A DNA stretch of 64,000 nt from Phycisphaerales bacterium (lineage in GTDB: Bacteria; Planctomycetota; Phycisphaerae; Phycisphaerales; SM1A02): the NCBI GenBank assembly GCA_022446795.1, contig JAKVBX010000009.1, positions 65,142-129,141 on the forward strand, written 5' to 3'. Both the position numbers and the translations under genes were made by a program. This document shows, piece by piece, positions 22,435 to 28,904 of this stretch. The notes beneath the pieces are model-generated. The model was not told the DNA's origin, ran no database searches, and saw only the letters and a list, made by a program, of their open reading frames with translations. The number at the start of each line of letters is the position of its first letter. The first letter of the stretch is position 1.

Positions 22435-23976
22435 CTATCGCCCTCGCCCGCCACGTCCGCCGGGACCGCCTCCGCGTCCACCGGGACCACCACCGCGTCC
22501 GCCACGACCGCCACGGCCCTCGGCTCCGCCACGGCCCCCGCGACCTTCCGCACCACCGCGACCTGGAGCAGAACGGACGGATGACAACTTGGAGTACCGG
22601 CTCTGGCCGATGATCCCCTGGAGGCGTTCCATCATGACGGCTTCCCAGGACTGCAACTCCGTCCGGCCATCGGTCCCAGGCTGTGCGAGTTGATCCGCCT
22701 CGAAGTCCACGGCCGGGATCACGCTCTCACCGACCCGTCGGCGAGTGCTCAACAGGCGATTGGTGTCCTGCAACTGCCACTCGTAGGAAGAGCGAACGGC
22801 GAAGTCCAGCATCCAGTCAATAGCCTCGATACGCAGTTCTTCAACAGCCGCACGCTCACCATCCTCGAGGGGTGGCCGAGCAGCCAGGGACTCCTCGATG
22901 GCACGAAGAATCTTGCTGCGGGCAAAGACAGACGGGTAGATCTTCCCGAGGACCACTTCCCTGAAATTCCGGCTGCTCTCGACACTCAGTACGTCGGCGA
23001 TCTGCTGGATATAACTCAGGTTGACATCACGGACCGCCTCACGGAGCGCCAACTCGTGACGAGCCGCATTCATCCAGGTTGGAGCTGAACGACCGCTCCC
23101 ACCGGCGATGTACCCACGGATGACATCATCAAATCCAACCTGTCTCGCCACGATCGCGTCGTTCGCTGCCCGTTTCCATGCCGCGATGACGGGAGCCGCC
23201 GCGGCCTTCTCTTCGTCGGTGAACGGCTGGGCCCGGACATAGCCATCGAGATCGAGGGCCTCGCCATTCAGTTCGCCCCGCTGGATTTCCCGGTTGAGCC
23301 GGATATCGATCATGACCGGCTCCATGTATGCCGCCTGCTCGGGCTCCAGGAAGGCCACGAACTCGGCCTGCAGATCCCCCGCCAGCTGATCCCGCGTGGC
23401 CACCCAGGTCTCGAACAGGCCCAGGTACTCATTGAAGTACCCGCCCCAGTCCATGGCCGCTGCCTTGGCTCGATCAAACTCGTTGATCTGCTGGCGAATC
23501 TCAACCATGGCGTCGCGCAATGCCTGCTGCTTCTGCTGGTAGTCATCACCACCGTTGCGGCGGGCCTGTTGAAGTTCCTGCTGCAGTCGCCTGATGGTGG
23601 CCTGGGCTTCCTTCTTCTGGGCCTCGATGTCCTCGACGCCATCGGAGTCAGGGGTCAGCTTGGACACGGCCTCGCGATACGCGCTGCTGCCTTCTCGAAA
23701 GGAATCCTGGTAACTGGTCAGCATCATCTCGACGACGACCTTCATGGACTCGTCGACACCAAGCCCGGTGACGAATGCATTGAGATCGGCAGTCTGGACG
23801 ATCGGGCGAGCCTGGCCCAGGTCCGGCAACTCCACCGTGCGGACCTGCCGCCCGGCTGGATGCTCCGAAGGCCGGCCCCGCTGGGCCATCGCCGGTGTCG
23901 CCAGGCCCCAGAGCACGAGCAGGCCCATCACGGCCACACTGATCGTGTTCCTGTTCCATCTCCTGCTGTCAACCAT
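22435..23976 (-). CDS. Secreted helical protein with an RGG-repeat C-terminal tail, function unknown
   Basis: From the ATG at 23976 (GGAGAAGG upstream) the protein has 513 residues. A signal peptide ends near ATPAMA. Residues about 80-190 are coiled-coil-rich (QATIRRLQQELQQARR). Residues 290-350 contain REAVRDVNLSYIQQI and FREVVLGKIYP, which align with RTALVDANLDWLE and FRAYALGRIFP of the next protein (24075-25580), so the two look paralogous. The last 42 residues are almost only Gly and Arg with Ala-Glu and Pro interruptions, in short tandem repeats. I do not recognise a family. An exported protein with such a basic tail could bind polyanions or the envelope. Confidence 0.75.
   Translation of the reverse strand: MVDSRRWNRNTISVAVMGLLVLWGLATPAMAQRGRPSEHPAGRQVRTVELPDLGQARPIVQTADLNAFVTGLGVDESMKVVVEMMLTSYQDSFREGSSAYREAVSKLTPDSDGVEDIEAQKKEAQATIRRLQQELQQARRNGGDDYQQKQQALRDAMVEIRQQINEFDRAKAAAMDWGGYFNEYLGLFETWVATRDQLAGDLQAEFVAFLEPEQAAYMEPVMIDIRLNREIQRGELNGEALDLDGYVRAQPFTDEEKAAAAPVIAAWKRAANDAIVARQVGFDDVIRGYIAGGSGRSAPTWMNAARHELALREAVRDVNLSYIQQIADVLSVESSRNFREVVLGKIYPSVFARSKILRAIEESLAARPPLEDGERAAVEELRIEAIDWMLDFAVRSSYEWQLQDTNRLLSTRRRVGESVIPAVDFEADQLAQPGTDGRTELQSWEAVMMERLQGIIGQSRYSKLSSVRSAPGRGGAEGRGGRGGAEGRGGRGGRGGGPGGRGGGPGGRGGRGR
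22438..22566 (-). repeat. Gly/Arg tandem repeats encoding an RGG tail
   Basis: The DNA is a degenerate CCG/CCA/CCT-rich repeat on the plus strand. The encoded units are RGGAEGRGG twice, then GGPGGRG twice, then RGGRGR at the end. Repeat-number variation between relatives would be expected. Confidence 0.75.
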
Positions 23977-24074
23977 GACCTTCTCCTTCCACCAGCCGTG
24001 GCCCGACCCCCTGTACGAGCACTGCTGCTGGTCTCTCCCCGGCAATCCTCGATCTTCCGACCTGACGGGGCCCA

Positions 24075-25580
24075 CTAGGGCGCCGGCACCGTCGGATTTT
24101 CCTTGGCCTTCATCATGTCGTCCCAGTAGACGACGTTGGCGCGTCGCTTCGCGGCGGCCGGGACCGGTCCGCGGGCCGGATCCGCCGGCCGCGCCGAGCG
24201 GAATCGGCCAGGCACCGTACGGTAGACCGTCTCGCCGACGATGTCCCGAACCCGGTGCTGGTAATCAAGGTCAAGCTGCACGCCGGCATCGAGGTGCGCT
24301 CTCCAGCCACGAAGGCTCTGGGGCATTTCATTCAGCCCGTTCATCCAGCCCCGGTAGGCCAGGCCGATGATGCTGCTCTCCACTTCGCGAGTGAGGCGGT
24401 CACGTTCCCAATTGGGCATCAGGATGATGGCGACCTCTCTCCAGGTATCCCGTTCAGAGCGATACTGGTCCTTCAGTTCCGCCAGGATCTTCATCTGCTC
24501 GGCGTCCAGCATCCGCGACTGCATCAGGTGCTCGATCGTGGCCTCGGCAGGATCACCTCGATGCAGATCCGGGAAGATCCGCCCAAGGGCATACGCCCTG
24601 AAACTCGCGCGAGCCTGCTCGTTCTCGATGCCCTCCAGGCAGCGTTCCAACCAGTCGAGATTGGCGTCGACCAGGGCCGTGCGGCTCGCGATCCGACGCT
24701 TGGCCAGTGACAGCAACTCCTCCAACTGGGTTCGATCCCGGGCGTCAAGCACCTCGGGTGCCGTCGAGGCCAGCACCATGTTGCGGTTCTGGAGCAGCTC
24801 GTCATAGATCTCGGCGTACTCGGCTCGCTGGGCATACAGATCCTGGTACTGGGTCGACTCCCGCCCGAAGTGCTCAGCCAGCAGCAGATCGAGATCCGTC
24901 TCCTCGGCACGGAACTCTTCCTTCCAGGCCGTGTTCAACCGCCGAAGGGCCCGCGTGACGGCCGCCCAATGTTCACTGTCGAGCCCGCGGATCAAGTCGA
25001 ACTTGTCCAGCAGTTCGTTCTCCAGTTCCATCCTCCGGGCTGACCAGTCGCGCATGATCGACGTCCGCGGCGAACTTGGCATCGGGTCAACGCCCCCCAT
25101 CTCGATCTCCTCCCGGATGATCTGCTGGACCCGCGCCAGCCGATCCGCAGTCGTGTCCTGGCGGATGACCAACTTGGTGGGATCACTCGAGGGAATCATC
25201 GCCTTTGAGGCACGCTTCCGGACATTCTGCCGATCGGACCAGTTGGACAACTGGTTCTTGGAGGCACCCATGGCTTCCTTGACCTGGGCCTGCACCACCC
25301 GGGCTTCTTCCTCGAACTGCCGGACGTACTCGTAGATGATCTGCTCCACGAGCGCCCGTTCCACATCCGAGAGCCCCAGTTCCTCCGTGATGATCCCCGA
25401 GTCACGTTCCAGGTAGGACGGGTAGTACATCCCTCGTTCCACTTCAGAGAAGTAGGGACCGCCCTGGAATCCCACGGCCGCCGACGCGATGGTGAGTTGG
25501 CCCCCCGCCGCCGAAGTGGCGGACAGGACCATGGGGGTCGCAAGGATGACGGCCAGGAACCGGTGAATGGCGTTCTTCAT
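24075..25580 (-). CDS. Secreted helical protein, paralogue of the RGG-tailed neighbour, function unknown
   Basis: The protein has 501 residues with a signal peptide (MKNAIHRFLAVILATPMVLSATSAA) and a GAGGAGC ribosome-binding region before the ATG at 25580. It is mostly helical and charged, with heptad-like segments (ALVEQIIYEYVRQFEEEARV, LLSLAKRRIASRTALVDANL). It shares length, secondary-structure pattern and the N-L-x5-15-FR-x3-LG-x-I-x-P block with the protein encoded downstream, but has a Pro/Ala-rich end instead of an RGG tail. No catalytic motif is seen. The two genes are 98 nt apart and likely one transcription unit starting at the dyad at 25652. Confidence 0.72.
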   Translation of the reverse strand: MKNAIHRFLAVILATPMVLSATSAAGGQLTIASAAVGFQGGPYFSEVERGMYYPSYLERDSGIITEELGLSDVERALVEQIIYEYVRQFEEEARVVQAQVKEAMGASKNQLSNWSDRQNVRKRASKAMIPSSDPTKLVIRQDTTADRLARVQQIIREEIEMGGVDPMPSSPRTSIMRDWSARRMELENELLDKFDLIRGLDSEHWAAVTRALRRLNTAWKEEFRAEETDLDLLLAEHFGRESTQYQDLYAQRAEYAEIYDELLQNRNMVLASTAPEVLDARDRTQLEELLSLAKRRIASRTALVDANLDWLERCLEGIENEQARASFRAYALGRIFPDLHRGDPAEATIEHLMQSRMLDAEQMKILAELKDQYRSERDTWREVAIILMPNWERDRLTREVESSIIGLAYRGWMNGLNEMPQSLRGWRAHLDAGVQLDLDYQHRVRDIVGETVYRTVPGRFRSARPADPARGPVPAAAKRRANVVYWDDMMKAKENPTVPAP

Positions 25581-26701: not shown

Positions 26702-27098
26702 GGGATCCCGGGCCACTGGCCGTCACGGCATTGGGCAGATGACACACCCGGGCCCGCCGCCACGGCACGAGCTCGATCGTCATCACATCGATGCGCACCA
26801 GGTGATGTGGCCAGCGCGTCGCGAGCCGCCGTGCGGAACGCAGGAGTCGACGCTGCTTCGCCCCGGTCACCCGGTCAAGCAGGTCGCCCGGCGACCGGCT
26901 GGTCTTCACCTCGATACAGGCCAGGACCCGACCGTCGGGGGACTCGGCCACGATGTCGATCTCATCAACACCGACCTGGCGATTCCGCTGCACGATTCGC
27001 CACCCTCGTCGACGCAGCCACCGCCTGGCCACGAGTTCACCGCGGCGGCCTGTACGACGGGCATGCTGTCCCTGCCGGACCTCACCCTCGTGGGTCAA
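26634..27098 (-). CDS. yraN: YraN / UPF0102 family nuclease-like protein
   Basis: The protein has 154 residues. It probably starts at the TTG at 27098, which overlaps the stop of the foldase gene (TTGA) and has AAGGAAGG just upstream; no ATG or GTG is available in the right place. The UPF0102 core is clear: GELVARRWLRRRGWRIVQRN, DEIDIVAES and VLACIEVKTSRS with the PD-(D/E)xK-like D-ExK residues, and VRIDVMTIEL at the end. The last 30 residues extend past the usual family end and overlap the YpdA-like gene on the other strand, so they may be unconstrained. Role in cells poorly known; possibly DNA repair or recombination. Confidence 0.85.
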   Translation of the reverse strand: MTHEGEVRQGQHARRTGRRGELVARRWLRRRGWRIVQRNRQVGVDEIDIVAESPDGRVLACIEVKTSRSPGDLLDRVTGAKQRRLLRSARRLATRWPHHLVRIDVMTIELVPWRRARVCHLPNAVTASGPGSLRPRAGCGREPRAVVGGRGWRP

Positions 27099-28366
27099 CG
27101 ACCTTCCTTGTAGCGGGAGAGCGCAATCGCGATGACACGCATCTGCATCTGGTCAAGGTTGTCATAGATGCCCTCCTGGAGGAGGTCGTCGATGAACTGC
27201 TTCCGGGCCCGGTTCATCCGCTTGCCGAGGATCTCACCCTGCAGGGCCGCCTGCACCTTGGGGTCATACAGGTCCTGGTGTTCCGCCTTGGTGATCTCGA
27301 TCACGCTGACCCAGATGGTGTAGCTCCCCCGGACAAAGGACTTGGAGGTCTCATCCGGCCCAAGCCCCTTGAGATGTTCCTTGTAGAACTCGGCGACCTC
27401 GATATCCGTCACGCCACCGTCGCCCATCTTGAAGGTGTCCCAGGCGCCGTCATCCGGCATTCCGGCCCAGGCGGCCACGACCTCGAACGAGTCACCGGCG
27501 TCGAGCATCTCCTGGACGGTCTTGATCTTCTCCTCGTTGCCCTCGGTCCTGATCCGGATCCGACCGAGCATCACGCTCGGGTCCGGCTGGAACTCGTCGA
27601 TCCGCGCGTTGTAGAGCCGCTCCACATCCTTCCAGGACATCATCACGTTCGGTTGGATCTTTTCCTGCATCAGCGTTCGGATCAACAGCTGATCCTCCTG
27701 CGTCTTGAGGTACTCCTCCCACCCGAGCCCCTCTTCCTGCATGATCTGCTGCTGGGCTTCTCCGAAGACACCGCCGCGTTCACCAACCAGTTCCTCTCGA
27801 AGCTGCTGCATGAAGGCCATGAGACCGGTGCGTTCCTCGGCGTTCAGGGAGGCTCTCGCCTCGGAGAGATACAACTCGTTCAGGACCAGCTCCTGGAGTT
27901 GCGCCCCCACGAGTCGAATCAAGGTCGCCTGGAACTGCTCCCAGTTGGGTGACGAAGCATCCTCCACCAGCGTGGCGTACTCGGCATTCAACTGATCCGC
28001 GAGCGGGCTCAATACCTCGTCCGCATAGATCGGACGACCATTGACCTGGCCGATCAGGCTGTCGACGATCACCGACTCACCGGGCGCCACCTGCACATCG
28101 AAGAACGTCTCCATCGCGTCGTCGGCCGCTGACGGAAAGTACAGCGGAGCTGCAGGACGCAGGCCCGACGCCACCAGGGCCTCGGAAGCCTCGGACTCGG
28201 AGAGTGATACCTGGGACTGGTTGTCCTCGTCGGCGAAGTCTGCAACGGCAAGCTTCGATCCCGACGGCGCAGGCATGACACTCTGCACGAAGTCGCATCC
28301 CGGAATCGCCACGAGCACGATTCCCAGTGCCAGGATCATCCATGAACGATGGTGTCTGGAAATCAC
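27095..28366 (-). CDS. SurA/PpiC-like lipoprotein foldase (peptidylprolyl isomerase family)
   Basis: From the GTG at 28366 the protein has 423 residues. The hydrophobic N-terminus ends in AIPGC, a lipobox-like site. The N-terminal chaperone helices (GQVNGRPIYADEVLSPLADQ onwards, ending near YLKTQEDQLLIRTLMQEKI) resemble SurA. The region VMLGRIRI...LDAGDSFEVVAAWAG...TIWVSVIEI has the strand and helix order of a parvulin domain, though degenerate. It should assist folding of exported or outer-membrane proteins. The start is supported by a TAGAAT element ending 7 nt before the GTG. yraN overlaps its end. An ATG at 28339 would leave a shorter signal peptide. Confidence 0.75.
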   Translation of the reverse strand: MISRHHRSWMILALGIVLVAIPGCDFVQSVMPAPSGSKLAVADFADEDNQSQVSLSESEASEALVASGLRPAAPLYFPSAADDAMETFFDVQVAPGESVIVDSLIGQVNGRPIYADEVLSPLADQLNAEYATLVEDASSPNWEQFQATLIRLVGAQLQELVLNELYLSEARASLNAEERTGLMAFMQQLREELVGERGGVFGEAQQQIMQEEGLGWEEYLKTQEDQLLIRTLMQEKIQPNVMMSWKDVERLYNARIDEFQPDPSVMLGRIRIRTEGNEEKIKTVQEMLDAGDSFEVVAAWAGMPDDGAWDTFKMGDGGVTDIEVAEFYKEHLKGLGPDETSKSFVRGSYTIWVSVIEITKAEHQDLYDPKVQAALQGEILGKRMNRARKQFIDDLLQEGIYDNLDQMQMRVIAIALSRYKEGR

Positions 28367-28373
28367 GCCGCCA

Positions 28374-28379
28374 ATTCTA
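28374..28379 (-). promoter_or_regulatory. -10 element directly before the foldase start (leaderless type)
   Basis: TAGAAT on the minus strand is followed by seven bases (TGGCGGC) and the GTG at 28366, placing the expected transcription start on the start codon itself. Confidence 0.45.
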
Positions 28380-28454
28380 CCCGGACCGACTCGTCGCGAG
28401 CGGATCGGGTACGCTTCTGCAGCGGCGATACACGCCGCGGAAGGGACAATCGCC

Positions 28455-28904
28455 ATGACCGCAGATGAGACCCCCAAGATCCAGGTCGATTCCGACTGGA
28501 AGGCGGAAGCCCAGGCCGAGAAGGAACGGCTGGCGGCTACGGAAGAGAAGCAGGCGGAAAATGGGCCCCGTGGCCTGCCCCCGGCGGACTTCAAGGGACT
28601 CATGGGCATCCTCGCCTCGCAGGCCATGATGGGACTGGGCATGGTCCAGGACCCAGGTGGCAAGGGCGTCATGGTCGACCTGGAAGGCTCCAAGTTCGCC
28701 ATCGACCTGCTTGACGTGCTCCAGCAGAAGACCACGGGCAACCTCAGCGATGAGGAAGACAAGGAAATCAACCAGTTGCTGGTGGAACTCCGGGCTCGCT
28801 TCGTGCAGATCACGCAGTTGATCGCTCAGCAGGCCAGTGGCGCTCCGGCACCGGGCACTCCCGACGATACCTCCCAGCCGGGCAGCCCCATCATCACGCC
28901 CTGA
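28455..28904 (+). CDS. DUF1844 family protein
   Basis: From the ATG at 28455 the protein has 149 residues. The DUF1844 core is DFKGLMGILASQAMMGLGMV followed by DLEGSKFAIDLLDVLQQKT and LSDEEDKEINQLLVELRARF. The N-terminus (about 45 residues) is a charged helix rich in Lys and Glu, and the last 20 residues are Pro/Gly-rich. The family is widespread in Planctomycetes and some other phyla with no established function. It is divergent from the foldase gene and convergent (9-nt gap) with the membrane glycosyltransferase-like gene. Confidence 0.85.
   Translation: MTADETPKIQVDSDWKAEAQAEKERLAATEEKQAENGPRGLPPADFKGLMGILASQAMMGLGMVQDPGGKGVMVDLEGSKFAIDLLDVLQQKTTGNLSDEEDKEINQLLVELRARFVQITQLIAQQASGAPAPGTPDDTSQPGSPIITP

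Follow-up and report, generated by a model that had tools for sequence, protein, structure and literature searches.

Spy, CpxP, ZraP, and CnrX are each known as one small module. In Cupriavidus, the CnrYXH system combines a membrane-bound anti-sigma factor, the sensor CnrX, and an extracytoplasmic function (ECF) sigma factor (passages of PMC4803752 and PMC7689651). Here we consider two tandem genes, A and B, from a Phycisphaerales bacterium of the phylum Planctomycetota. They lie in a stretch of 64,000 nucleotides, which we call the window (GenBank assembly GCA_022446795.1, contig JAKVBX010000009.1, positions 65,142 to 129,141 of the forward strand). A first reading of these letters, the original prediction, described the products of A and B as exported, helix-rich paralogs. 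We found that the core of each protein very probably consists of three consecutive helical modules of the Spy/CpxP/CnrX type. Our best overall explanation, which we hold with moderate confidence, is that A and B are exported triple-module proteins that act as envelope-stress scaffolds.

The modules of A and B and their family

In outline, the original prediction held up. The two genes are in tandem, both proteins start with a hydrophobic stretch (B's ends AMA-Q), and the AlphaFold models of both are helical (mean predicted local distance difference test, or pLDDT, of 82 for B and 73 for A, with a predicted template modeling score, or pTM, of 0.74 for B). The two models were built from the same nine sequences and are not fully independent. 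As judged by hydropathy, a hydrophobic stretch lies ahead of the core in 145 of 148 family members, with an AxA-like site in 135; as a control, the same test was applied to module 2 and was positive in only 2 members. By this proxy, A and B appear to carry an export signal. The prediction also noticed a block that the two proteins share, and this block is real (A 290-340 and B 302-351, 29% identity, E = 4e-5 for the pair; BLAST detected only this block). But its statement that they share little else was wrong on one point: homology spans the whole core, at 16% identity, and one family model recognizes both B (E = 5e-86) and A (E = 2e-79). These comparisons indicate that A and B are true paralogs.

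The searches also indicate that A and B belong to a large, multicopy family of exported proteins in the order Phycisphaerales. With B as the query, 30 of 41 genomes have a match, and with A, 19 of 41 (their own genome included); a profile built from 50 members finds matches in 74 of the order's 151 genomes. Across the whole phylum, this profile matches 22 of 294 genomes; every long match belongs to Phycisphaerales, and the remaining matches are partial. The profile searches scored only 5 to 9 candidates per genome, so both the copy numbers and the numbers of genomes should be read as minimum values. We found no relative in the plasmids searched or in a scan of genome contigs with B alone. For the analyses below, we used 150 family members (8 of them open-ended), which are nonredundant open reading frames accepted by the family model at a threshold of E = 1e-10. 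This set was drawn from loci retrieved by searching with these proteins, and it favors close relatives. (The two pair alignments, A6 and A7, have 56 and 26 rows.)

Three kinds of evidence point to three modules. First, LTxxQ-like motifs, counted per alignment column with a loose pattern, are concentrated at four columns (in B numbering): B74 (92 of 149 members), B210 (106 of 144), B370 (65 of 148), and B456 (112 of 147), where about 1.4 would be expected. Typical words are LDDTQ and the like at B74 and LTPEQ at B210 and B456. The other columns with counts above 20 are an EF-hand loop, a neighbor of B74 two columns off (40), and the helical column B400 (45), where the words have E in place of the final Q. 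The middle pair of motifs is weak (B250-252 and B330, 14-17 of about 150). Second, in the model of B, the motif positions (74, 210, 252, 330, 370, and 456) are all at helix-helix junctions, and a long hairpin, bounded on each side by a motif and beyond it a short helix, occurs three times. Cutting at the motif positions gives modules of about 120, 113, and 120 residues in members that lack a helical insertion in module 1. Third, the module profiles match one another: modules 1 and 3 at E = 1e-12 (97.8%), modules 1 and 2 at 4.6e-9 (96%), and modules 2 and 3 at 2.4e-7 (93%), where each hhalign E-value refers to a single comparison. Reversed-profile controls gave 0.0026 to 0.24, and controls against ECF sigma factor, anti-sigma factor, and coiled-insert profiles gave 3.4e-4 to 0.41 (module 1 against the coiled insert being the strongest). 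The profiles were made from 80 rows picked under 45% identity, with only the 45 rows without the insertion for module 1. Because the modules match one another far above the reversed and unrelated controls, we interpret the core as a triplication.

In a tree of the 150 members (a quick build with some long branches, and with support from the Shimodaira-Hasegawa-like approximate likelihood ratio test only), the A group (6 orthologs and 1 other row) and the B group (6 orthologs and 2 other rows) are sister groups, nested in a set of 15 rows with support of 99. The extra rows include an A-like/B-like tandem pair (L050/L069), whose B-like protein retains an EF-hand. The contig L069 (G001 C29) is filed under a congener, and it is 99.98% identical over 16.2 kb to L307 (G409 C41), which belongs to another genus of the same family. 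We therefore do not count this second pair as the congener's own. Since the contig is probably a contaminant in the congener's assembly, A and B appear to be the product of an old tandem duplication that predates the genus. Tandem copies of family genes are also present elsewhere in the order, with at most three in succession; such runs of three triple-LTxxQ genes on one strand are seen in other families of Phycisphaerales (L298-L301).

Similarity to LTXXQ proteins and CnrX

In single-sequence scans, neither A nor B reaches the cutoff of any Pfam or NCBIfam model. (Matches to helical families below the cutoffs, such as OmpH at E = 0.003 for B, were set aside as coiled-coil noise.) Among 50 members compared to Pfam, the recurring matches were to EF-hand_1 (6 members), LTXXQ (4, best E = 6e-4), EF-hand_7 (3), Metal_resist (2, best E = 1.7e-5), and EF-hand_5 (2); no family was matched by more than 6 members. 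We compared the module profiles to a set of 18 planctomycete PF07813 (LTXXQ) proteins together with Spy, CpxP, and ZraP from E. coli, and obtained E = 6e-12 for module 1, 8e-9 for module 3, and 5.5e-7 for module 2; reversed controls gave 0.03 or weaker. (Of 21 loci over the LTXXQ cutoff, we took 19, leaving out two partial ones, and used 18, one being at a contig edge. A Metal_resist set was made from 8 of 9 loci over the cutoff; it shares five proteins with the LTXXQ set, and the two comparisons are therefore not independent.) In addition, the module-1 model recognizes, at 8e-11, a single-module LTXXQ/EF-hand protein encoded in the same genome (the 258-residue protein described below), and a weak family match outside the order shares its open frame with an LTXXQ match over the cutoff (G086). 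The genome of A and B has no protein over the PF07813 cutoff.

The structural models suggest a relationship of module 2 to CnrX. Module 2 of A matches CnrX in Foldseek (2y39, probability 0.94, target template modeling score of 0.75), and the other rows listed for A have probabilities of at most 0.13, except for two more CnrX entries. In a fold search, A 224-338 aligns to CnrX 4wwf_A over 109 of 111 residues (root-mean-square deviation, or rmsd, of 2.5, Z = 6.1), and B 240-348 aligns to CnrX 2y3d_A over 107 of 111 residues (rmsd 2.5, Z = 8.3). Across both models, CnrX chains from Cupriavidus metallidurans fit module 2 over 107-110 of their 110-111 residues, with an rmsd of 2.5-3.2, and the block noticed by the original prediction falls within this module. 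This evidence for the four-helix sensor fold concerns module 2. Z-scores of 6-8 are modest for helical models and are not decisive alone; we accept the CnrX-like fold because the targets are fully covered, the match is at the same place in both models, and there is the sequence evidence. The Foldseek rows with the best E-values are coiled-coil pore proteins with rmsd above 20, which we set aside as length-driven. Similarly, rows from the fold search of B with Z above CnrX's either cover hairpins of 67-69 residues or have rmsd of at least 7, and were set aside as hairpin matches. The fold matches listed include no Spy or CpxP chain, which is uninformative.

Together, the profiles and models indicate that the modules belong to the LTXXQ or Spy-CpxP-ZraP-CnrX superfamily and that the family is a triplicated, order-wide variant which current models miss. 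The original prediction had placed the proteins in no known family, and had named a profile link to a characterized family as the result that would count against it. Its statement holds in that no curated cutoff is reached, but profile and fold comparison both link the modules to a characterized superfamily. Because the proteins score below the cutoff and are larger than single-module proteins, we consider the family to be a related variant and do not file it under PF07813. Among 13 papers that mention LTXXQ, we found no multi-module LTXXQ protein in titles or abstract openings, and no paper was found that brings together three or more of the subjects Planctomycetes, ECF sigma, EF-hand, and LTXXQ.

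Tails, EF-hands, and gene neighborhoods

The original prediction described a 42-residue Gly/Arg tail on B, and we agree. It has 26 Gly, 10 Arg, 2 Ala, 2 Glu, and 2 Pro (P ~ 4e-23 given the composition of B itself). The codons are diverse, with all four for Gly and three for Arg in use, which rules out a fresh DNA microsatellite. Within the pair, the tail is indeed confined to B: A and its orthologs have no Arg/Gly (R/G) tail. But B is not peculiar in this respect, as a 20-residue stretch after the core with at least 12 R/G is present in 65 of 150 family members. When the relatives are checked, as the prediction proposed, the R/G-rich end is kept in all six congeneric B proteins and varies in length, with 14-46 residues past position 468 (14 in two congeners).

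Many relatives have something else in the tail, which is an EF-hand loop (48 of 150 members), often in the order R/G, EF-hand, R/G. We looked for this loop in A and B and did not find it. The helical insertion in module 1 is present in 66 rows and absent from 84; all 48 EF-hand members carry it, and the rows without it have no EF-hand. A, B, and their orthologs carry the insertion, and in the tree, the nearest relatives of B outside of its own ortholog group have EF-hands. The simplest history would be that the R/G-EF-hand tail is ancestral to the insertion-bearing branch, and that the B line lost the EF-hand and the A line lost both. B's R/G tail is then probably the remnant of a longer tail or linker to an EF-hand, which would explain the puzzle of an RGG tail on an exported protein.

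R/G runs are also found in three unrelated exported proteins from the same genome: a trypsin-like protein, a redoxin-like protein with EF-hands, and a YHYH protein (L108, L118, and L121, on contigs C1 and C23; these have RGGRGG runs, as a C-terminal tail in L121). Because unrelated exported proteins carry them, R/G tails seem to be a habit of this genome's exported proteins and not a mark of RNA binding. A Pfam scan found no RNA-binding domain in A or B. Another locus (L113, on contig C12) encodes a small basic protein with a Gly/Arg/Pro-rich C-terminal tail, which we take to resemble ribosomal protein S21. (The search of the genome with an R/G pattern gave 25 hits, versus 10 for the reversed pattern; 20 loci were judged by eye for real genes, and of the other 5, four are in the window.)

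Some paralogs of A and B are next to genes that recall CnrYXH. In the same genome, an EF-hand paralog (L068, contig C1) is divergent to three consecutive genes, whose products are an ECF-type sigma factor, a zf-HC2 anti-sigma factor, and a 258-residue protein. The latter has an N-terminal hydrophobic anchor, one module similar to LTXXQ and Metal_resist (under both cutoffs), and two EF-hands. This CnrYXH-like locus is at L068:6532-8368, and others are in L071, L076, L273, L274, L284, L285, and L286. Overall, the divergent arrangement of sigma factor, zf-HC2 protein, and single-LTXXQ-EF protein is found in 8 of 58 neighborhoods, from eight genomes, with one lacking a detected anti-sigma gene. 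(L069 and L307 represent one and the same stretch, which leaves 57 distinct neighborhoods of the 58.) The other 50 neighborhoods, which include A-B in four congeners, have no such gene next to the family gene; in two, a sigma factor lies more than 4 kb away.

The features of A and B are listed in Table 1. Although the open frame of B extends back to a GTG at 24075, translation probably starts at the ATG at 23976, which is preceded by a stretch that resembles a ribosome-binding site (GGAGAAGG). A comes first, and 98 bases separate its stop codon from the ATG of B. Because this gap is short, or the genes overlap, in the 4 congeners that have the pair on one contig, A and B are most likely on one transcript. 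Orthologs of A (43-51% identity) and of B (31-42% identity) are present in all five of the other congeneric genomes. The pair is flanked on one side by a convergent radical S-adenosylmethionine gene, which we presume to resemble rlmN, and on the other side by a divergent gene for a flavin adenine dinucleotide (FAD) oxidoreductase. The pair and its flanking genes are conserved in 5 of 5 congeners (in one, split over two contigs), and the neighbors are 66-73% identical. Another neighboring gene (27095-28813, minus strand; 572 residues by the longest frame) is 67-75% identical in the congeners, and its product had no match in a Pfam scan at E = 1e-5.

Table 1. Features of genes A and B, in positions of the window
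Feature	Position	Strand	Details
Gene A	24075..25580	minus	501 residues, ATG start; exported triple-LTxxQ-type protein (predicted); upstream member of the pair
A module 1 (about residues 44-223)	24912..25451	minus	alignment to B
A module 2 (about residues 225-338)	24567..24908	minus	superposes on CnrX sensor domain (2y39, 4wwf_A)
A module 3 (about residues 340-455)	24216..24563	minus	alignment to B; module-3 model E = 1.6e-19
A C-terminal segment (residues 456-501)	24078..24215	minus	no R/G repeat; RGPV...NVVYW kept in congeners
Gene B	22435..23976	minus	513 residues; exported triple-LTxxQ-type protein with R/G tail (predicted)
B signal peptide, Sec-type, predicted (residues 1-31)	23884..23976	minus	ends AMA-Q; sequence reading and family-wide hydropathy proxy
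B module 1 (residues 55-235)	23272..23814	minus	LTxxQ-type, helical insertion at about 106-176; motif columns, profiles, model helices
B module 2 (residues 238-350)	22927..23265	minus	superposes on CnrX sensor domain (2y3d_A)
B module 3 (residues 352-471)	22564..22923	minus	LTxxQ-type; motif columns, module profiles
B Gly/Arg tail (residues 472-513)	22438..22563	minus	36/42 G or R; low pLDDT from residue 470

Possible functions and comparison with known systems

As envelope-stress scaffolds, A and B would act outside the cytoplasm. We tentatively propose, by analogy with Spy, that they are ATP-independent holdases or adaptors, which might bind partly unfolded or surface proteins along their concatenated hairpins. 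The disordered R/G tail of B, as a leftover of the R/G linker and EF-hand, would serve as an electrostatic tether or a solubility tail. It could provide the basic charge that is missing from the core, or it could tether the pair to an acidic envelope. As they are probably cotranscribed, A and B may act together. A broader reading, which we consider doubtful, is that triplication of a Spy/CnrX module led to multicopy, exported, multivalent scaffolds that are wired into a CnrYXH-like envelope response. The membrane-anchored single LTXXQ/EF-hand protein would be a sensor that reads the state of the envelope, and calcium, via the anti-sigma factor; the triple-module EF-hand proteins would be the sensor's output or its titrating partners; and the A-B branch would have left the locus and lost the EF-hand, with the R/G linker retained as a free tail.

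Several results weigh against viewing A and B as envelope-stress scaffolds of the Spy/CnrX kind. The LTxxQ motifs are degenerate in A and B themselves. Both proteins are below the Pfam cutoffs for LTXXQ and Metal_resist, and the best scores from ten relatives were 25.4 of 29.2 bits and 20.5 of 24.3 bits (the latter for LTXXQ). Spy, CpxP, and ZraP from E. coli alone give E = 3e-5 for module 1, 2e-4 for module 3, and 0.009 for module 2, a weak link that does not stand out clearly from the strongest negative control (3e-4). Profiles built from the entire family, from module 1, and from module 3 retrieved no chain of Spy, CpxP, or CnrX from the PDB by sequence. (The matches were designed helical bundles, apolipoprotein, and similar, with no LTxxQ chain among them.) Foldseek never gave E < 0.001 for the model of A or B, and no CnrX was among the best 50 rows listed for B. 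There is no sigma or anti-sigma gene in the window, as searched with models built here. Finally, the client surface of Spy is basic (a passage of PMC8144458), but the core of A and B is acidic (net charge of -18 for both, and a family median of -18), which argues against a simple copy of Spy.

An alternative is that the modules sense or store a divalent metal, as CnrX or ZraP do, and that the EF-hand of the relatives adds calcium sensing. This would fit with the CnrX-like fold of module 2, the weak Metal_resist matches in relatives, the EF-hands in 48 of 150 members, and the CnrYXH-like arrangement with an ECF sigma factor in 8 of 58 neighborhoods. However, neither His nor Cys is found in any core column in more than 25% of members (B contains two His residues and lacks Cys), and because no such column is conserved, a role as a metal sensor is less likely. 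Signaling by CnrX requires a Met ligand (a passage of PMC7689651), but Met is absent from the conserved columns. Also, A and B do not have the EF-hand loop, and the models built here found no sigma factor in the window. Overall, we consider a role in sensing or storing metals to be unlikely.

Another alternative builds on the original prediction's suggestion that the tail may bind DNA, acidic polysaccharide, or lipopolysaccharide: a surface or matrix protein, with the acidic core as its spacer and the R/G tail as the part that binds these polyanions (the DNA being extracellular). The shrinking of the tail to 14 residues in two congeners and the absence of such a tail from A make this improbable, even though the C-terminal part of B is basic (net charge of +8), is disordered in the model, is codon-diverse, and is R/G-rich in 6 of 6 congeners, and even though three unrelated exported proteins of the genome have R/G runs. 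Furthermore, among family tails of at least 20 residues, only 71 of 124 have a net positive charge, so the binding of polyanions is not a role shared by the tails in general. It is very improbable that the resemblance to LTxxQ proteins is just convergence among helical coiled-coil proteins, uninformative about descent or function: A and B reach no Pfam cutoff, no Foldseek E is below 0.001, and helical profiles can score by composition (as in module 1 against the coiled insert, 3e-4), but the motifs line up with helix junctions in a common register, controls with reversed or unrelated helical profiles are weaker by many orders, and the single-module protein from the same genome matches both LTXXQ and module 1.

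Under the scaffold explanation, an order-wide set of proteins that current family models do not recognize would gain a relation and a testable function. With three modules per chain, several copies per genome, and often a calcium motif, these proteins would be an elaboration of a stress module in planctomycetes.

Of the known systems, RGG-box proteins resemble B in the composition and repeat of its tail, but B is exported, and the position and history of its tail suggest a linker to an EF-hand. The EF-hand proteins (PF00036 and relatives) share the DxDGDGxLxxxE-pattern loop with the tails of 48 of 150 relatives, and 6 of 50 members match EF-hand_1 from Pfam at E = 0.01; in contrast, A and B have no loop, and the relatives mostly have a single loop and not a pair. 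As in CnrYXH, some paralogs adjoin an operon of ECF sigma factor, anti-sigma factor, and LTXXQ protein, but A-B has no sigma factor nearby, and the likely sensor in the paralogs' loci is a separate single-module protein. CnrX and NccX (Metal_resist, PF13801) have the sensor fold that is seen in module 2 of both models, whereas the family has no conserved His or Cys column. Finally, like the LTXXQ proteins (PF07813; Spy, CpxP, and ZraP), A and B are built from a predicted exported helical module with two LTxxQ-type turns. The profiles of all three modules are similar to LTXXQ, and paired motifs flank a long helical hairpin (the family-wide columns B74/B210 and B370/B456). The family of A and B differs from them in its acidic core, its R/G and EF-hand tails, and its Pfam scores below the cutoff, and in having three modules in a chain of about 500 residues, where the E. 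coli proteins have one module in 141-166 residues.

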